Origin: a virus | Virus record (IMG/VR): IMGVR_UViG_3300027897_000003 | Coordinates: 1 to 39,081 of that record | Direction: 5' to 3' (one strand) | Length of the DNA stretch: 39,081 nt | Part shown: positions 405 through 38,604 of the stretch, in pieces | Layout: the number at the start of each line of letters is the position of its first letter | Position numbering within the stretch: position 1 is the stretch's first letter | Made by a program: the position numbers and the translations under genes | The notes under the pieces: model-generated | What the model saw: the letters and a program-made list of their open reading frames with translations, nothing else | Told to the model about the DNA's origin: nothing | The model's database searches: none

Positions 405-623
405 GTGCGGTGTTGCTACTGTGGGCTCGAGGGGCACGACGGCCGGCGCTGTAATCGCCCGGAGGGCGTGGCGGCGCGCGGGGTGCTGGTGATCCGGATG
501 AGCGATCAGGCGCCGACGTGGCGCAATGCCGGGAAGGCGGGGGTGCGGCGAGGTGCCCGGCTCGGCGGCGCGGCGCGGGCCCGGCAGGCGGTGCAGCAAA
601 GGAGGGCTTTGGCATGCTCCTGA
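405..623 (+). CDS. CCHC zinc-knuckle small protein
   Basis: A 72-residue protein starting at GTG, directly after a G-rich Shine-Dalgarno (AGGGGGGG, 394-401). Residues 3-16 read CCYCGLEGHDGRRC and fit the zinc-knuckle spacing C-X2-C-X4-H-X4-C exactly; such knuckles usually bind single-stranded RNA or DNA. The C-terminal half is very basic (many Arg). The gene overlaps the start of the following CsrA-like gene by 10 bases, suggesting translational coupling, so two probable RNA-binding proteins are made together. The motif is plain in the sequence; the nucleic-acid role is inferred from the family. Confidence 0.6.
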   Translation: MRCCYCGLEGHDGRRCNRPEGVAARGVLVIRMSDQAPTWRNAGKAGVRRGARLGGAARARQAVQQRRALACS

Positions 624-1057
624 TCGGCCGAGAAGTGGGACAGGGAGCCTACGTCGGCCGCGGCGTCAGGCTGACCGTCACCGGCGTGGAGCCGGACCGC
701 GGCTCGCCCGGGGAAGGCCGGGCCGAGTTGACGATCGAGTACCGGTCCGATGTCGTGGTCTCCGGGTCCGACGTGCCGGCCGGGGATCACGTGCGCTGGC
801 AGGCCGAGGCGGAGGCTCGCCTCCGGGTCGATCCACGGACCCTGCCCGCCCGGGTCACGGCCCTGTGGGTGCCGCGGCGCTCCGGTGTCCTGATCGGCCG
901 CGGCATCCGGGTCGTGATCGTCGAGGTGCAGGCTGACGGGATGGTCCGGCTGGGCTTCGATGCGCCGAAGCACGTGGCGGTCTCCCGCGACGACTTCACG
1001 CTCGAGGACCACCTGCGCTTTCAGGCGCAGCGGGACGGATCCGAGGCGCCGCGATGA
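614..1057 (+). CDS. tandem two-domain CsrA/RsmA-like protein
   Basis: A 147-residue protein starting at ATG 614 behind GGAGGG (601-606). It appears to hold two CsrA-like domains. Domain 1 begins MLLIGREVGQ and continues YVGRGVRLTVTGV, matching the CsrA start MLILTRRVGE...IGDDI.V.V..V. Domain 2 (about residues 83-137) contains WVPRRSG, VLIGRGIRVVIVEV, LGFDAPKHVAVSRDDF, matching CsrA IG.NAPK.V.VHREEI. CsrA binds GGA motifs in mRNA leaders using Arg/Leu of strand 1 from one subunit and the Arg of strand 5 (Arg44) from the other. Here R6 of domain 1, R88/R89 and R125 (Arg44 equivalent) of domain 2 are present, but domain 1 has VVVSGSD where Arg44 should be. Normal CsrA is about 60-70 residues and homodimeric. 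An intramolecular dimer with one complete RNA site is inferred. Confidence 0.6.
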   Translation: MLLIGREVGQGAYVGRGVRLTVTGVEPDRGSPGEGRAELTIEYRSDVVVSGSDVPAGDHVRWQAEAEARLRVDPRTLPARVTALWVPRRSGVLIGRGIRVVIVEVQADGMVRLGFDAPKHVAVSRDDFTLEDHLRFQAQRDGSEAPR

Positions 1058-1428
1058 GGCCGGCTCTCGATCGGCGCGTCGAGGACATGCGCGTTGCCGG
1101 GGATCCCGGCTCGGGCTGCCGCGGCGCGTTCCTGCTGCGCGGCGCGCCGACCGGGATGCTGCTCTACTGCGTGGTCTCGGACGGGCGCGACTGGCGCACG
1201 CTGGGACTGCCGGAGCCGGCGTGGGAACACGTTTCGGTCTCGGTGCGCGCCGGGCGCTGCCCGACGTGGGCTGAATTGGAGTTCGTCAAGCGGACGTTCT
1301 GGGGCGAGGACGAGTGGGCGCTGCAGCTTCACGCGCCTCCGGGCAAGCACATCAGCATCCATCCACGAGTGCTGCATCTCTGGCGGCCGGTCTGCGATCT
1401 GCCAGTCCCGCCGGCCGAGTGCGTCTAG
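1054..1428 (+). CDS. conserved phage protein, DUF7694-like
   Basis: A 124-residue protein whose ATG overlaps the stop of the CsrA-like gene (ATGA). The central and C-terminal parts read WEHVSVSV, RCPTWAELEFVKRTFWG and ALQLHAPPGKHISIHPRVLHLWRP. That pattern (WxHVSVS, RCPTWxEMxFVKxxFW, QxHPPxxxYxxxHPxxLHLWRP) is familiar from a widespread family of small phage and prophage proteins of unknown function. The family assignment rests on remembered motif similarity. No catalytic role is known to me; the conserved Trp, His and Cys residues suggest a compact folded domain. Confidence 0.6.
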   Translation: MRPALDRRVEDMRVAGDPGSGCRGAFLLRGAPTGMLLYCVVSDGRDWRTLGLPEPAWEHVSVSVRAGRCPTWAELEFVKRTFWGEDEWALQLHAPPGKHISIHPRVLHLWRPVCDLPVPPAECV

Positions 1429-1869: not shown

Positions 1870-3329
1870 AGACCGCAGGAAAGCCCCGGCGGCCCGTGGC
1901 CTCGAGGAAGTCTGCGCGGGCCCCGCGCCGCGGCGCGCTCGGCGCGCGGGCGGCGCGCTCGGCGCTGGAGCATGCGCAGTCGATCGTTCCGGTGATGGTC
2001 TCACACATCCAGCTATGGGGCGTCGAGCGCCTCCGGCTCCTCGATCGGAATCCCCGCACGCACACCGACGAGCAGATCTCCGAGATCGCCGCGAGCATGC
2101 GGGAGTTCGGCTTCCTCTGGCCGATCCTCGTCAACGTCCAGACCGGCTCCGTGGTGGCCGGGAACGGTCGACTGCTGGCGGCGCTCCGGCTGGGCCTGCG
2201 GGCGGTCCCGGTCGTCGAGGAGCGGCACCTCAGCGAGGCGCAACGCCGGGCGTTCATCATCGCCGACAACAAGATCGCCCTGAACGCCGGCTGGGCAGCC
2301 GAGATCCTCGCCGAGGAGTTCCCGGCGCTCGAGGCGCTGGGCTTCGACGTGAGCCTGACCGGCTTCAGCGAGAAGGAGATCGCGGAGATCGTGGCCAGCG
2401 TCGAGCCCGAGCCGCCCGAGGAGCCAGACTTGCCGGCGCCGCCGGCCGTGCCGTTCTCTCGCTCTGGCGACCTGTGGACGCTCGGGCCACATCGGCTCTT
2501 GTGCGGGGACGCCACCTCGAGCGCCGACCTGCAGCGGCTCATGGACGGGAAGCTGGCCGACGCCGCGTGGACCGACCCGCCGTACAACGTGGCCTACGAG
2601 GGCTCGGCCGGCTCGATCGAGAACGATGCCATGTCAGACGAGGACTTCGCGGCCTTCGTCGGCTCGGCCTTCCGGGCCCTGATCGGCTCCATGCGGCCCG
2701 GGGGCCCGGTCTACGTCGCCCACAGCGATACCGGCGGCTACACGTTCCGGCGGGCGTTCCTCGAGGCCGGCTTCAAGCTCTCGTCCTGTCTGATCTGGAA
2801 GAAGAACGCTCTCGTCCTCTCGCGCGGGGACTACCATTGGCGCCACGAGCCGATCCTCTACGGCTGGAAGCCCGGGGCGACGCACCGCTGGTACGGCGGG
2901 CGGGACAAGACCACGATCGCCGAGTTCGACGGCTTGCCGTTCCAGCAGGTCGGCGACGACGAGTGGCAGATCGCGGTTGGGGACACGACCCTGATCGTGC
3001 GCGGTCGGGATCTCACCATCGAGCCGGCGCACGGGACGGTGTTCTCCGAGCCGAAGCCCGTGGCCAGCGCCGAGCATCCGACCATGAAGCCGGTCCGGCT
3101 AATCAGCCGCATGCTGGCGAACAGCGCGCGGCGCGGCGCGCTCGTGCTGGACCCGTTCGCAGGTTCGGGCTCGACGCTCATGGCCTGCCAGCACCTCGGG
3201 CTGGCCGGACGGATGCTCGAGATCGATCCGCGGTTTGTCGACGTGATCATCTGGCGTTGGCAGCAGGCCAGCGGCGAGGAGGCGATACGCGAGGACGGCG
3301 TGCGCTTCGGCGGCAAGCGGGCCCGGTGA
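1866..3329 (+). CDS. ParB-domain / beta-class DNA methyltransferase fusion
   Basis: A 487-residue two-domain protein starting at GTG 1866, overlapping the upstream stop. The N-terminal part after a basic leader is a ParB/sulfiredoxin-type domain: NPRTHTDEQ (from residue 62), I..SM.EFGF..PILV, VVAGNGR (96-102), VPVV and IADNKIALNAGW. The C-terminal part is an amino-methyltransferase with motif IV DPPY at 237-240 and, downstream, the AdoMet motif I region DPFAGSGST at 429-437; this IV-before-I order is that of beta-class N6-adenine/N4-cytosine enzymes. HPTMKP before motif I is also typical. Such ParB-MTase fusions occur widely in phages and mobile elements as orphan enzymes. No cognate restriction enzyme is visible, so protection of phage DNA or regulatory methylation is the likely role. 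Target sequence unknown. Confidence 0.88.
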   Translation: MKTAGKPRRPVASRKSARAPRRGALGARAARSALEHAQSIVPVMVSHIQLWGVERLRLLDRNPRTHTDEQISEIAASMREFGFLWPILVNVQTGSVVAGNGRLLAALRLGLRAVPVVEERHLSEAQRRAFIIADNKIALNAGWAAEILAEEFPALEALGFDVSLTGFSEKEIAEIVASVEPEPPEEPDLPAPPAVPFSRSGDLWTLGPHRLLCGDATSSADLQRLMDGKLADAAWTDPPYNVAYEGSAGSIENDAMSDEDFAAFVGSAFRALIGSMRPGGPVYVAHSDTGGYTFRRAFLEAGFKLSSCLIWKKNALVLSRGDYHWRHEPILYGWKPGATHRWYGGRDKTTIAEFDGLPFQQVGDDEWQIAVGDTTLIVRGRDLTIEPAHGTVFSEPKPVASAEHPTMKPVRLISRMLANSARRGALVLDPFAGSGSTLMACQHLGLAGRMLEIDPRFVDVIIWRWQQASGEEAIREDGVRFGGKRAR

Positions 3330-3700
3330 GCCCGGGGCTCGAGGCCGAGCGGGCGATTGCCCGGCGCGTGGGCGAGATCATGGCCAGCGTCGCCCGGGAG
3401 CGGCGCGCGGCCCGGGCTCGCGCGCTGGCAGCTCGCCCGCAGGCGCTTTCGCCCGGCACGCTGGCCGGCGTGGCGCGCTGGCGGGCCGAGCGGCCCGAGG
3501 GTCCGCGCGCCCACAAGCGGGTCTACCACGCGGTCCGGGCGGGCCTCATCACCAAGCCCGAGGCATGCGAGGACTGTGGCCGGGAGGTGCGGCTCCATGC
3601 GCACCACGACGACTACTCGAAGCCGTTGAAGGTCCGATGGCTCTGCGGGCGCTGCCATCGGCTTGCCCACAAGGCGCTCGCGCAGGGAGGGACCACATGA
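3326..3700 (+). CDS. HNH-like zinc-binding protein
   Basis: A 124-residue protein starting at GTG 3326, overlapping the methyltransferase stop by 4 bases. The first ~60 residues are Ala/Arg-rich and helical. The C-terminal half carries CEDCG (C81, C84), LHAHHDDYSKPL (H91, H93, H94) and WLCGRCHRLAH (C107, C110, H111). This arrangement, two CxxC pairs around an HHDDYSKP segment, recurs in many phage proteins and resembles a treble-clef HNH nuclease core. Whether it cuts DNA is uncertain because the classical Asn and second catalytic His are not obvious. It sits between the methyltransferase and small unknown genes. Confidence 0.55.
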   Translation: MSPGLEAERAIARRVGEIMASVARERRAARARALAARPQALSPGTLAGVARWRAERPEGPRAHKRVYHAVRAGLITKPEACEDCGREVRLHAHHDDYSKPLKVRWLCGRCHRLAHKALAQGGTT

Positions 3701-4146
3701 TCAGGGTGAGGCATCCGTTCCGGGTCACGGCGCTGGAGCCGCGGCTGGCCTTCGCCGGCTCGCAGCACGCATGCGACACGGGGGCGAAGACCGTACGCCT
3801 CGAGGCGGGCTTCGGCGTGGGATCCGTCGAGGTCGTGCTGGGGCCGGAGCAGTCCAAGGAGTTGAAGCTTGGGAGGATCGTCACGGTCGAGATCATTGGC
3901 CCAGACCCGATGGGGGAGTTGTTCAGTCTCGAGGTCGGCCCGGCCGGGATCCTGATCGAGTCGGAGCGGGCGCGGGAGTTCCTGTTCGAGCAGGCGAAGC
4001 GCTTCCGCTCGGCGTTGCTGGCCGTCCCGGGTCGCGCCACGGCGCGGATTGCGCCGTCTTTCGACTCGCCCCGGGCTGCACGAGAACTCGTCCAAGAGGT
4101 GATCGAGGATGAGATCAAGAAGGCGATCGCCGGGGTGATCCGATGA
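3697..4146 (+). CDS. hypothetical protein
   Basis: A 149-residue protein starting at ATG 3697, overlapping the upstream stop (ATGA) with GGAGGG just before. It has a beta-rich first half (VTALEPRLAF, VEVVLG, IVTVEIIG, LFSLEVGPAGILIE) and a helical C-terminal half (AREFLFEQAKRFRSALL, ARELVQEVIEDEIKKAIAGVI). No motif recognised. Also coupled to the next gene by an ATGA overlap. Confidence 0.55.
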   Translation: MIRVRHPFRVTALEPRLAFAGSQHACDTGAKTVRLEAGFGVGSVEVVLGPEQSKELKLGRIVTVEIIGPDPMGELFSLEVGPAGILIESERAREFLFEQAKRFRSALLAVPGRATARIAPSFDSPRAARELVQEVIEDEIKKAIAGVIR

Positions 4147-7189: not shown

Positions 7190-7780
7190 GTGGGGCGGGC
7201 ATCCTCGGCGAGGCGGGAGTACTTGTCGCAGCGCGCCTATGCCGCGCGGCGCGGGGTCTCGCACAAGGCCGTGCAGAAGGCCATTGCGGCTGGCCGGCTG
7301 GCGGGGGCGGTCCGGGCCGACGGCAAGATCGATCCGGCGGCCGCCGACCGGGCATGGGCTGCCAACACCGACGTGACCAAGTCGCGGAATTCCGTCTCGG
7401 GGGATCCCAAGCGGCGGCGGGTGCCCGGGACCCCGTCCCTGCCCGCCAGCTCCCGCCCCGAGGGCGAGGCGGCGTCCGACCCGGGTGCGCTCGGGGTCTC
7501 CGACCGCGGCTACACCGCGGCGCGCGCCATGCGGGAGGCATTCGCGGCCAAGACGGCGAAGCTCGAGTACGAGCGGCTGTCGGGGAAGCTGATCGAGGCG
7601 GACGAGGTGCGGCGTGGGGCCTTCGAGACCGGCCGGCGGGTGCGGGACACGATCCTGTCGATCCCCGACCGGCTCTCACCGATCCTCGCCGGGCTCACCG
7701 ACGTCAACGAGATCCACAGGGCCCTGACGATCGAGCTTCGGGCCGCGCTCGAGGCGCTTTCTCATGACCGGCGGCGCTGA
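7190..7780 (+). CDS. terS: terminase small subunit (Nu1-like)
   Basis: A 196-residue protein. The N-terminus (LSQRAYAARRGVSHKAVQKAI...GRL) is a helix-turn-helix of the Nu1 type that recognises the packaging start site. After a Pro/Gly-rich linker, AKTAKLEYERLSGKLIEADEV and RRVRDTILSIPDRLSPILAGL match the assembly region of lambda-type small terminases. It overlaps the large subunit by 17 bases. GTG 7190 is the longest start that clears the upstream stop but has a weak ribosome site; TTG 7223, behind GGCGGGAG, would shorten it by 11 residues. It forms the packaging motor's DNA-recognition ring with the downstream gene product. Confidence 0.8.
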   Translation: MGRASSARREYLSQRAYAARRGVSHKAVQKAIAAGRLAGAVRADGKIDPAAADRAWAANTDVTKSRNSVSGDPKRRRVPGTPSLPASSRPEGEAASDPGALGVSDRGYTAARAMREAFAAKTAKLEYERLSGKLIEADEVRRGAFETGRRVRDTILSIPDRLSPILAGLTDVNEIHRALTIELRAALEALSHDRRR

Positions 7781-9686
7781 GATCTACGGCCGTTCCCTGC
7801 TGGACGGCCTCGAGCCAGACGACGAGTTGACCGTTCACGAGTGGGCGGACGCTCACCGGATGCTGTCCTCTGCGGCCTCGAGCGAGCCGGGGCCGTGGCG
7901 GACGGCGCGGACCCCGTACCTGCGCGAGCCGATGGACTGTCTGAGCCCTGTGCATCCCTGCCGGCGGGTCGTCATGCAGTTTGGGGCGCAGCTCGGGAAG
8001 ACCGAGACCGGGAACAATTGGATCGGGGCGATCATTCACCGCTGGCCGGCTCCGATCCTGATGGTCCTGCCGACCGTGGACATCGCCAAGAAGGTCTCGA
8101 AGCAGCGGATCGCGCCGATGATCATGGCCTCGGACGCGCTGCGCAGCCGGGTCCGGGATGCGCGCTCGCGGGACTCCGGGAACACGGTGCAGGTCAAGGA
8201 ATTCCCGGGCGGCGTCCTCATGCTGACCGGGGCGAACTCCGGGGCTGGCCTGCGCTCGATGCCGATCCGCGACCTGTTCCTCGACGAGATCGACAAGTAT
8301 CCCGGCGACGTCGATGGAGAGGGCGACCCGGTCGCTCTGGCCGAGAAGCGGACGGCCACCTTCTCGCGGCGTAAGGTCCTGTTGACCTCGACGCCGACGA
8401 TCAAGGGCTTCAGTCGGATCGAGCGCGAGATGCGGCGGACCGACCTGCGGCGCTACTACGTGCCGTGCCCGGCCTGCGGCCACATGGATTACCTCACGTG
8501 GCGCGAGGTCGGCCATCACCGCATCGAGTGGAACGAGGGCTCGCCGGAGACGGCGCACATGGTCTGCGGGAAGTGCGACGCGAGCGTGGAGGAGTGGCAC
8601 AAGACGGCCATGCTCGAGCGCGGCGAGTGGCGCTCGACCCAGACCGCGGACCGCGCCTCGGTGGGCTTCCACCTGTCGGCGCTCTACTCGCCGATCGGCT
8701 GGAAGTCGTGGCGGGAGTGCGTCGAGGAGTTCCTCGACGCCAAGGACGACCCGTTGAAGCTCCGGGTCTGGGTCAACACCGTGCTGGCCGAGACGTGGGA
8801 GGAGCGCGGTACCAGCATCGAGAGCGGAGTACTCAGGCTGCGCTGTCGGCCGTACCGGGCCGAGATCCCGGCCGGGGTTGGCGTCCTCGTGGCGGCGATC
8901 GACACCCAGATCGACCGGCTCGAGGTCATGGTCTACGGCTTCGGCGCCGGCGAGGAGATGTGGCTGGTGGCCTTCACGCAGTTGTTCGGCGATCCGTCCC
9001 GGGAGGCGGTCTGGTACGACCTCGACCGGTTCCTCGAGCGCGACTACGTCCACGAGTCGGGCCGGCGCTTCCGGGTCGAGACCACGGTGATCGACTCGGG
9101 TGGCGCCCACACCGAGGAGGTCTACCGGTTCGCGGCTGCTCGGCAACGCCGGCACGTCTACGCGATCAAGGGCGCCTCCTACTCGGGCCGGCCGCTCGTG
9201 GAACGGCCGTCCACCAACAACCGCTACCGGATCCCGCTGTTCGTCCTGTGCGTCGACACCGGCAAGGAGATCGTGATCAGCCGCTTCCAGATCTCGGCTC
9301 CGGGGCCCGGATACATCCACCTGCCGGAGTGGGTTGACGACGAGATCCTGTCGCAGTTGACCGCCGAGCGTGCGGTGCGCAAGTACGTGCGGGGCCGTGG
9401 GTCCGTCCGGGTGTGGCTCAAGCAGCGGGAGCGTAACGAGGCGCTCGACATGACCGTCTACGCGCTGGCGGGCCTCTACGTGGCCTTCCCCGTGGCCTCG
9501 AGCCGGTCTCGGATGCTCGAGGAGCGGGCGGCGCGCTGGGCGGCGCCTCCGGACGATGCCTCCGGCGGGCCCGCCGGGCCTCCCGGGGGCCCGCCGCCGA
9601 ACGGCGAGCCGCCGTCCCAAGATCGCCCGGCCCCGGCCCTGCCGTCCCGGTTCCGTCGCGGCGGCTGGGTCCGCGGCTACCGCTGA
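7764..9686 (+). CDS. terL: terminase large subunit (lambda GpA family)
   Basis: A 640-residue packaging ATPase/nuclease. The ATPase part has a Walker-A-like GAQLGKTE (74-81) after VVMQF and a Walker B LFLDEID (171-177), followed by the coupling segment LLTSTPT. A zinc-like pair CPACG (235-238) and CGKCD (268-271) is characteristic of the GpA family. The C-terminal nuclease part shows AAIDTQIDRLEVMVYGFG and VIDSGGAHTEEVY, with the acidic residues expected of an RNase-H-like fold. Length matches lambda GpA (641). The last ~45 residues are Pro/Gly-rich and probably serve in portal docking. Lambda-type terminases normally cut at cos sites; I could not identify a cos site by eye. Confidence 0.95.
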   Translation: MTGGAEIYGRSLLDGLEPDDELTVHEWADAHRMLSSAASSEPGPWRTARTPYLREPMDCLSPVHPCRRVVMQFGAQLGKTETGNNWIGAIIHRWPAPILMVLPTVDIAKKVSKQRIAPMIMASDALRSRVRDARSRDSGNTVQVKEFPGGVLMLTGANSGAGLRSMPIRDLFLDEIDKYPGDVDGEGDPVALAEKRTATFSRRKVLLTSTPTIKGFSRIEREMRRTDLRRYYVPCPACGHMDYLTWREVGHHRIEWNEGSPETAHMVCGKCDASVEEWHKTAMLERGEWRSTQTADRASVGFHLSALYSPIGWKSWRECVEEFLDAKDDPLKLRVWVNTVLAETWEERGTSIESGVLRLRCRPYRAEIPAGVGVLVAAIDTQIDRLEVMVYGFGAGEEMWLVAFTQLFGDPSREAVWYDLDRFLERDYVHESGRRFRVETTVIDSGGAHTEEVYRFAAARQRRHVYAIKGASYSGRPLVERPSTNNRYRIPLFVLCVDTGKEIVISRFQISAPGPGYIHLPEWVDDEILSQLTAERAVRKYVRGRGSVRVWLKQRERNEALDMTVYALAGLYVAFPVASSRSRMLEERAARWAAPPDDASGGPAGPPGGPPPNGEPPSQDRPAPALPSRFRRGGWVRGYR

Positions 9687-14057: not shown

Positions 14058-14329
14058 CGGGCCAGCTGCTCGCCGGGCCCGGGCGCGCGGGGCCGCGGAC
14101 GGATCCGCGGCCCCGCGGCGCGTTCCGGCCGGCGCCGCGGGCCGCCCGGGGGGCCCGCGGCGCCCCGTGGCGGCCCCGGTGCGCGCTCCAGCCTGCGCCA
14201 GCGCGCCACGGCGCCCCGTGGCGGGCCGTTCGGTGAGGGTCTGGCCTCCGGTGCCTCCGTGGCCCGCGGGCCCCCCGGGCGGGCCGCGGGGCCCCCCCGG
14301 GGGCCGCCCCGGTCCGGGTTCCCGGGACA
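14058..14329. other. 272-bp extremely GC-rich hairpin cluster
   Basis: No gene is supported here. The stretch contains a 14-bp perfect stem (14086-14099 with 14104-14117) capped by the tetraloop CGGA, and a 13-bp perfect stem (14131-14143 with 14152-14164). It also has a direct repeat CGGCGCCCCGTGGCGG at 14158-14173 and 14209-14224, then G/C runs up to about 14310. It separates the small-gene island from the morphogenesis operon. Transcription barrier, processing site or packaging/recombination site are all possible. Confidence 0.7.
14086..14117 (+). terminator. strong hairpin with CGGA tetraloop
   Basis: A 14-bp perfect stem closes the four-base loop C-G-G-A at 14100-14103. It begins 29 bases after the 13791 gene's stop codon, as a terminator would, but lacks a U-tract. 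A GGA in a stable hairpin loop is also the preferred CsrA-type RNA target, which may matter given the CsrA-like gene at the left end. Confidence 0.45.
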
Positions 14330-32998: not shown

Positions 32999-33168
32999 GG
33001 TTTCCGGCGCGCGCCGGGAGCCGGTGCCGGGGGCGGAATTCGGCGGCGCGGGGTCGCCGGATCGATGCCGCCGGAGATGCACCGGGCGGCGCGGGCTGGC
33101 GGTGCCGGGCGGGCCGGCGCGCAGGGAGTGTGCCGGTCCGCTTCGGCGGGCGCAGGGAGGGAGTGGCG

Positions 33169-36652: not shown

Positions 36653-37757
36653 GGTCTTTCGTTCTCTCTGGGACGGGACGCTGGCGGACTCGTGGGAGGC
36701 GTGGGCGCTATTCGTGTTCCTGCTTGCGCACGCGGACGCCGAGGGCTTTGTCGACATGACCCCGCAGGCGATCGCGCGCCGATCGTCGATGCCGCTCGAC
36801 GCCGTGCGCCGCGGGATCGAGGTCCTCGAGGCGCCCGACCAGGACAGCCGATCCGATGCCGAGGACGGCCGCCGGCTGGTGCGGATCGATCCCCGGAGGC
36901 CGTGGGGATGGCGGATCGTCAACGCCCGCTACTACCGCGGGCTGACCGACGCCGAGACCGTTCGGGAGTCGGCGCGGGTCAGGCAGGCCGACCGCCGGCG
37001 CCGGGACCGCTTCGAGGCGTCACAGCGTCACGGCGAGTCACACGCGGTCACGGCGAGTCACACGCGGTCACGGCAAGCAGAAGCAGAGGAAGAGGCAGAA
37101 GGATCTACTCCTTCCTCGCTTCGCTCGGAAGGAGCCGGCGAGCCGCTCTCTGGAGGGGTCGGTTTCCAGACCGACTTGGACGGGTACCCTCTCGTGGCCG
37201 ACGGCACTGGCCTCTCGGGGCACGGCCGGAGCGCCAGCGGGCTCGCTGATGGGCCTGCGGCGGGCGCTGGCGGCGTTTCGTGCGCTGGGATGGACTCGGA
37301 GCCGGGCCCGGGAGGACCCGGGTCTCCTGAGCCGGCCACGGAGGCCGGGGGCGCGAATTCACCCAGCTTGACGGACCGCCTTGCGCTGGGGGGGCCGGAG
37401 GCGGCTGGCCGGGCTCGGATGCTCGAGCGTGGGCTGGGGATCCCGGCTGCGGGGCACAAGCCGGATTGGGTGCCGACCGAGGCGATGCTGGCCGAGTGGC
37501 GGGCGGCCTTCCCGGGGGTCGACATCGAGGCGCAGATCCGGGCCATGCGCACGTGGTCGCTGACCCACCTGTCGCAGCGGAAGACCATGCGTGGCATGCC
37601 GGCGTTCGTGAATAGGTGGCTCTCGACCGAGCAGGACAAGCTCAGTCGCGGCGCCGGCGCGGCGCGGTCCGGTCGCTCGCATCGGGCTCCGGCCGACGCC
37701 CGCTACCTCGAGCAGAACCGCCACGCGGTCGGCGGCGCGGAGGCTGGCCATGAGTGA
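36642..37757 (+). CDS. phage replication initiator-like protein
   Basis: A 371-residue protein starting at GTG 36642 after GGAGGGAG. The N-terminal winged-helix part, YAKVFRSLWDGTLADSWEAWALFVFLLAHAD, GFVDMTPQAIARRSSMPLDAVRRGIEVLEAPD, RRLVRID, WGWRIVNARYYR, matches the common phage replication protein (K.F.SI.DGTL...W.A...F..LL...D..G.VD.T...IA..T..P...V...I..LE.PD..S....E.GRR...ID....WGW.IVN...YR). A variable, Gly/Ser-rich linker carries the iteron DNA, and the C-terminal part (WRAAFPGVDIEAQIRAMRTWSLTH, GMPAFVNRWLS) resembles a helicase-loader interaction tail. It should bind its own gene's repeats and open the origin, as lambda O does. Confidence 0.78.
   Translation: MYAKVFRSLWDGTLADSWEAWALFVFLLAHADAEGFVDMTPQAIARRSSMPLDAVRRGIEVLEAPDQDSRSDAEDGRRLVRIDPRRPWGWRIVNARYYRGLTDAETVRESARVRQADRRRRDRFEASQRHGESHAVTASHTRSRQAEAEEEAEGSTPSSLRSEGAGEPLSGGVGFQTDLDGYPLVADGTGLSGHGRSASGLADGPAAGAGGVSCAGMDSEPGPGGPGSPEPATEAGGANSPSLTDRLALGGPEAAGRARMLERGLGIPAAGHKPDWVPTEAMLAEWRAAFPGVDIEAQIRAMRTWSLTHLSQRKTMRGMPAFVNRWLSTEQDKLSRGAGAARSGRSHRAPADARYLEQNRHAVGGAEAGHE
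37019..37134. other. probable replication origin: phased GTCAC iterons plus purine-rich tract and hairpin
   Basis: GTCAC occurs at 37019, 37027, 37037, 37047, 37057 and 37067; the last five are exactly 10 bases apart, i.e. on one face of the helix. They form two perfect 20-bp units GTCACGGCGAGTCACACGCG (37027-37046, 37047-37066) and a partial third. A purine-rich, relatively A-rich tract (37074-37101) and an 8-bp inverted repeat CTCCTTCC / GGAAGGAG (37108-37115, 37127-37134) follow. Lying inside the initiator gene next to the helicase loader mirrors the lambda O/ori layout. The origin function is inferred. Confidence 0.65.
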
Positions 37758-38604
37758 TTCGGGTCCGGAGCAGCTCGGTGTGGTCCTCTCGCGGTTGCAG
37801 GAGCGCTGGGTGCAGGGCGACTGTGCCGACTGCGCGCGGCCGTTCCTGCGTCCGCCCGATCACACGGTGGCGCTCTGCCCGGCCTGCCAGATGAAGGCGG
37901 ACCGGCGCGAGGCGCTGTCCGGCGAGGCGGCGCGCGTCATCCAGAACATGGAGCGCTGGGTGCCGGCGTGGCTCCTGAAGGCGGGCATGTCGCGGCGCGA
38001 GTTGGGTGCCACGTGGGACGGGATCCCGCCCAAGGTCGCCCGGGTGCTGACCCATCCACCGCTCGAGGTCCGGGCAATGGGAGCGGGCCGGCTGCCGCCG
38101 CACGGATTCGGGCTGTCCGGCGACGCCGGAACTGGCAAGACGTTCGCGCTGGCGGTGCTGGTGCGCAGCATGCTCGAGGCGCGCTGGCGGGCGTGGGCCC
38201 CGGAGGAGGGGCTCAAGGCGACGCGCTCGTGGCTGGCGTGGGTTCACTGGCCGGAGCGGGTCAACCGGATGCGGGTCCTGTCGACGGTCGACGGAGGCCT
38301 CGAGGACGTCGAGCGCATGATCTCCGGGCTGTGCCAGATCGAGATGCTCGTCCTCGACGACCTCGGCGCGGAGCGGCTGCGCGGCGAGTACTCGGACGAC
38401 TGGGCGGCGTCGCAGTTGGACGTGCTGGTCGACCGCCGCTACAACGACCTGCGGCCGACGTGGTTCACCACGAACCTCAGCGGCGAGGAGTTCCTCGGCC
38501 GCTACGGTGCGCGGGTCTACTCGAGGCTGTGCGGCGAGAACGCGTTCGTGTCCGTCCCGGCGGGCCCCGACCTGCGGATCGTCAAGCCCGAGGTCAAGCC
38601 ATGA
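37750..38604 (+). CDS. DnaC-like helicase loader ATPase
   Basis: A 284-residue AAA+ protein starting at ATG 37750 and overlapping the initiator gene by 8 bases. An N-terminal zinc site C25-X2-C28...C43-X2-C46 is followed by the ATPase core: Walker A GDAGTGKT (124-131), Walker B MLVLDDLGAE (D203, D204), sensor-type WFTTNLSGEEF and the arginine-finger region YGARVYSRLCG. This is the DnaC/IstB/lambda-P-like loader pattern; it delivers the host replicative helicase to the origin marked by the upstream initiator. No phage helicase gene is seen, consistent with reliance on the host's. Confidence 0.85.
   Translation: MSDSGPEQLGVVLSRLQERWVQGDCADCARPFLRPPDHTVALCPACQMKADRREALSGEAARVIQNMERWVPAWLLKAGMSRRELGATWDGIPPKVARVLTHPPLEVRAMGAGRLPPHGFGLSGDAGTGKTFALAVLVRSMLEARWRAWAPEEGLKATRSWLAWVHWPERVNRMRVLSTVDGGLEDVERMISGLCQIEMLVLDDLGAERLRGEYSDDWAASQLDVLVDRRYNDLRPTWFTTNLSGEEFLGRYGARVYSRLCGENAFVSVPAGPDLRIVKPEVKP

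Follow-up and report, generated by a model that had tools for sequence, protein, structure and literature searches.

How many RNA sites would a CsrA protein keep when two of its domains are joined in a single chain, and what could a phage do with such a protein? In current descriptions CsrA is a symmetric dimer, and its hold on two RNA sites at once is believed to matter for full repression. Its RNA faces are formed by strands 1 and 5 of opposing subunits, L4 and R44 being critical (PMC7652899). We analyzed a stretch of 39,081 bases, hereafter called the window, which is a tailed-phage contig encoding a terminase (7764-9686), a portal, a major head protein and a tape measure protein. On its plus strand, an ATG-initiated gene at 614-1057 encodes a protein of 147 aa whose translation is the one given in an earlier note on this DNA. 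That note had proposed that the chain holds two successive CsrA-like domains and would fold as a pseudo-dimer with one complete and one damaged GGA-binding site. Altogether, the protein is probably a single-chain CsrA pseudo-dimer with one GGA-binding face, acting as a phage-encoded monovalent translational regulator.

The gene was characterized from its translation, with Pfam and PHROG, an AlphaFold2 model and a CsrA profile. The whole protein matches the Pfam family PF02599 in two stretches (1.4e-11, 44.6 bits for a gathering cut-off of 27), and its PHROG label is CsrA-like regulator. When the halves were searched separately, as the earlier note had suggested, the C-terminal one was recognized on its own (2e-8, 34.5 bits), whereas the N-terminal one (residues 1-74) remained below the cut-off with a non-significant value of 0.077 (13.4 bits). 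Domain 1 reaches 8.8 bits against a small profile of CsrAs with one domain; only one of 5000 shuffles of its residues exceeds this score, and no other ORF of the window scores above 2.1 bits. Domain 1 is nevertheless settled as CsrA because both halves of a homologue, on the viral contig L113, match a phage CsrA family (8.1e-7 and 2.7e-5). The proposal of two successive domains thus holds, from the Pfam match of the whole protein and from the L113 halves. PHROG 5527 and PHROG 31572 were also considered as tandem families and rejected, both L113 halves matching the same first 47 positions.

The earlier note had called for a search for similar genes in other phages, and four further tandem csrA genes were found in diverged viral contigs of IMG/VR. 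Their products, of 139 aa (L082/L109), 150 aa (L106), 142 aa (L110) and 133 aa (L113), are 29-44% identical to the window protein. These relatives were reached via the terminase and the head protein, then by profile and DNA-pattern scans; a search with the single query P0001 gave no relative in viral contigs, phages or plasmids. A tandem profile of the five sequences recovers its members at E values from 3e-57 to 9e-67, a range that includes the sequences from which it was built. L113 was the one real case among four new stretches, the domain-1 DNA-pattern matches in L111, L114 and L115 being due to chance. No tandem csrA was found in the genome contigs scanned, PF02599 gave no CsrA over a further 47 records that have related terminases and are in many cases fragments, and the CsrAs looked at from Bcep22-like and Xuquatrovirus phages are single-domain by annotated length.

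Structure prediction of the 147-residue chain, also proposed earlier, yielded a confident model (pLDDT 89.3, pTM 0.83), as it did for L113 (pLDDT 93.6, pTM 0.86), both models being built from five sequences only. In each, the CsrA element order, five strands and then a helix, occurs twice. In the window model, domain 1 (residues 1-70, positions 614-823, plus strand) has strands at 2-7, 11-14, 18-27, 35-44 and 49-50 and a helix at 56-69; domain 2 (residues 78-147, positions 845-1054, plus strand) has strands at 79-87, 91-94, 98-105, 110-116 and 123-125 and a helix at 130-142. Domain 2 superimposes on solved CsrA and RsmA chains with 1.9-2.9 Å and Z 3.8-5.0 over 53-56 residues, and a Foldseek search of the models against the PDB returned no significant match. 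The fold search alone is no proof, since Z values reach only 4-5 and unrelated beta folds score equally.

The two domains have kept different parts of the RNA site. R6, R125 and the SGSD at residues 50-53 are all present as the earlier note described them. Domain 1 retains R6 (codon 629-631) and has G51 (codon 764-766) at the R44 position; domain 2 retains R44 as R125 (codon 986-988) and, in the model register, has V86 (codon 869-871) at the R6 position. We call site A the pair formed by domain 1 strand 1 and domain 2 strand 5, and site B the pair formed by domain 2 strand 1 and domain 1 strand 5. At site A, M1, L2 and R6 of domain 1 and P118, A122, V123, R125, D126 and D127 of domain 2 are invariant in the five proteins, and the composite of domain 1 R6 and domain 2 R44 is the best conserved site in all of them. 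Conservation is clearly asymmetric, with a mean pairwise column identity of 0.64 at site A, 0.24 at site B and 0.36 over the whole protein. The permutation value for this comparison (p=0.0003) serves as a guide only, for two reasons: five related sequences are few, and the compared elements, although taken from the known CsrA site, had their exact limits drawn manually with the alignment already in view.

At site B, the R6 position of domain 2 is occupied by a hydrophobic residue in five of five proteins (model register). At the R44 position of domain 1, four proteins carry another residue (G, G, V, I) and L106 still has the arginine (SRGD). The two equivalent RNA faces of a classical homodimer are thus absent, as judged from sequence. 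R88 and R89, which the earlier note had selected for mutation, are not at positions 6 and 7 of domain 2 but lie, in the model register, in the turn that leads from strand 1 to strand 2. On the other hand, they would fall on these positions if sequence alone were aligned and a gap of 2 residues allowed, and two or three relatives have an arginine at position 7 of domain 2; site B may for these reasons keep some RNA contact. The residues suggest a site that is damaged rather than proven dead. Of the earlier idea of one complete and one damaged site, the complete one is supported by the conservation of the R6/R125 composite in five members, and the damaged one could be less empty than was assumed.

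One would then wonder whether the second face has been changed instead of lost, so that it binds a protein or a different RNA and leaves the chain bivalent in another way. The arginines at domain 2 position 7 and the residue S50, invariant in domain 1 strand 5, would fit this explanation, but the site B columns are conserved below the protein as a whole, and we consider it quite unlikely. Still far less credible is a decaying, functionless gene duplication. Domain 1 alone is indeed non-significant in Pfam, but five phages whose proteins share 29-44% identity have all kept the ORF intact, along with the predicted fold and the residues of the composite site, which disfavours decay.

Another hypothesis is a dominant-negative decoy, which would sit on the GGA sites of host mRNAs or of Csr small RNAs, fail to bridge them, and so undo the regulation by host CsrA. 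The one preserved site in five of five members speaks for it. Moreover, experiments with artificial one-site dimers have established that full glgC repression needs both sites of the CsrA dimer (reviewed in PMC7652899), which means that a protein with one site could act as a competitor yet not repress, and the plasmid protein RsmQ binds motifs of host RsmY and RsmZ as well as host Rsm proteins (PMC9928087). This hypothesis nevertheless hinges on CsrA being present in the host of the phage, the usual phage form of CsrA is single-domain (93 records), and a related phage retains a normal single-domain CsrA near the same place. It can be regarded as a possibility, although a rather unlikely one. 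The boldest formulation, in which evolution in a phage lineage has preserved a natural single-chain CsrA having just one functional RNA face, used as a monovalent antagonist of host CsrA networks, is likewise doubtful.

We therefore retain the single-chain pseudo-dimer with one GGA-binding face as the best explanation, its internal contacts, RNA binding, monovalency and targets being what we infer. The two domains would most likely fold on each other as CsrA subunits do in a dimer. One complete GGA-binding face would then arise where strand 1 of domain 1 adjoins strand 5 of domain 2, and another face, which lacks key arginines, where strand 1 of domain 2 adjoins strand 5 of domain 1. Only the former would bind A(N)GGA motifs, for example in Shine-Dalgarno regions. 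Such a chain would not link two sites of the same RNA and could do without a host CsrA subunit as partner. One could see it as a one-handed natural version of the two-handed CsrA, because only one of the two expected sites is preserved in five phages. The phage itself reveals no set of targets: the window contains 16 ANGGA hairpins, for 18.1 in shuffles, which is no enrichment. Two long stems were noticed there: a GC palindrome at about 14085-14118, with a 13-pair stem and an ANGGA loop, which lies between ORFs and is not a T-tailed terminator, and a long GC-rich stem with as many as 16 pairs, whose loop contains GGA, at about 33105-33145, within a region of overlapping ORFs.

The start region of the gene deserves attention in this respect. 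A Shine-Dalgarno sequence, AAAGGAGGG (598-606, plus strand), stands 8 bases before the csrA ATG and makes a good ribosome-binding site. It includes a GGA and folds into a weak small hairpin, which is not conserved in the relatives L106 and L110. Autoregulation of csrA through this GGA-bearing hairpin is possible, if unproven. On the downstream side, an ORF at 1054-1428 (plus strand), which matches phrog_7839, of unknown function, overlaps the csrA stop by 4 bases and probably belongs to the same operon.

Upstream, the earlier note had coupled the csrA gene to a zinc-knuckle gene in a two-protein RNA-binding cassette. The 10-base overlap (614-623) on which this rested is real. The ORF concerned (405-623, plus strand, GTG start, 72 aa) carries near its N-terminus CCYCGLEGHDGRRC, an exact CX2CX4HX4C and the sole match to this motif in 2.36 million six-frame residues, apart from its second occurrence in L001, which repeats the window. 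Its codon-position GC pattern is typical of a gene, and it has no match in Pfam or PHROG. The coupling is thus genuine in this window, but the cassette is not conserved: the motif is missing from the examined stretches of the relatives, which leaves the idea unsupported beyond the window. Small Cys/His-rich ORFs do occur downstream of tandem csrA in three relatives (L082 1293-1496, minus strand; L106 4871-5176; L113 911-1117, minus strand); their pattern, read by eye, is similar, and the two that were scanned gave no family match. Closer to the left end of the window, a short ORF at 12-395 has a hydrophobic N-terminus ending in a lipobox-like GGGCG and no family match.

The wider context links the five phages. 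A gene for a DnaC-like helicase loader is located near the right end of the window (37750-38604, plus strand), and its homologue, 47-50% identical, lies upstream of tandem csrA in four relatives, directly overlapping it in L106 and L110. That loader and csrA stand at opposite ends of the window contig is consistent with a circularly permuted genome; a terminal overlap of the window ends was looked for and not found. In L113, a gene for an RtcB-family RNA ligase (2564-3739, minus strand; Pfam 2.1e-65) lies between the loader and tandem csrA. The terminases of the relatives, where present, are 51-61% identical. A phage of the same broad clade (G058; L095/L105), with a terminase 53% identical, carries a single-domain csrA that lies upstream of the terminase gene, at a distance of about 6 kb. 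Support in the terminase tree is too weak to tell whether the single or the tandem form is ancestral.

Single-domain csrA genes are known in phages and plasmids (PMC7366521, PMC9928087), and we found no tandem or single-chain CsrA in the literature searched, which mostly excluded subscription journals. If our explanation is true, the existence of a natural one-face single-chain CsrA would mean that phages select for a monovalent form. Such a protein would offer a ready-made tool for separating RNA binding from bridging, and it would bring a fused version into the circulation of csrA genes already documented for mobile elements (PMC7366521).

With the CsrA/RsmA/RsmE family (PF02599), to which E. 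coli CsrA belongs, the window protein shares the five strands and helix, L/I4 and R6 in strand 1, the motif AP-x(3)-AV-x-R-(D/E)(D/E) around R44 and a Pfam score above the gathering cut-off. Known members are homodimers of about 60-75 aa with two identical RNA faces, whereas the window encodes one chain of 147 aa with two domains and unequal faces. The CsrA-like proteins of Pseudomonas, Vibrio and Burkholderia phages (PHROG 9500, 5527) are also phage-borne members of the family, but have one domain and are expected to homodimerise; among the matches listed for the 93 matched phage records, csrA occupies one place per record. Another relative with an unusual architecture is RsmN/RsmF of Pseudomonas aeruginosa (4KJI, 4K59), a CsrA-family protein with an altered chain path. 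Its structures align to both tandem models across both domains (Z 3.8-4.3, rmsd 4.1-4.4 Å). RsmN is a homodimer of 71 aa with an inserted helix, two sites and no tandem (PMC3791407), whereas helices follow strand 5 in both domains of both our models, without the inserted helix and missing C-terminal helix of the RsmN/RsmF type.

By fold, compact viral proteins of BFVD are close to the tandem chain: in Foldseek they cover most of both models with probability 1.00 and a target TM of 0.62-0.84. A0A6J5RUQ1 ('Carbon storage regulator', 114 aa), A0A6G5YEX0 (88 aa) and A0A6G5YD98 (96 aa) have a similar overall fold, and A0A7S5US24, A0A1J0MD66 and A0A2I7QSD7 are further matches, the named proteins being given as 85-114 aa long. 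These proteins, compared by fold match, are shorter (81-114 aa) and 15-19% identical to the tandem CsrA; their match to its fold suggests that single-chain CsrA-like forms may extend beyond these five. Finally, a parallel can be drawn with the artificial one-site CsrA dimers (Mercante et al. 2009, reviewed in PMC7652899), which likewise combine one working and one broken face. The latter are laboratory R44A mixtures of two chains, whereas the phage protein is a natural single chain.
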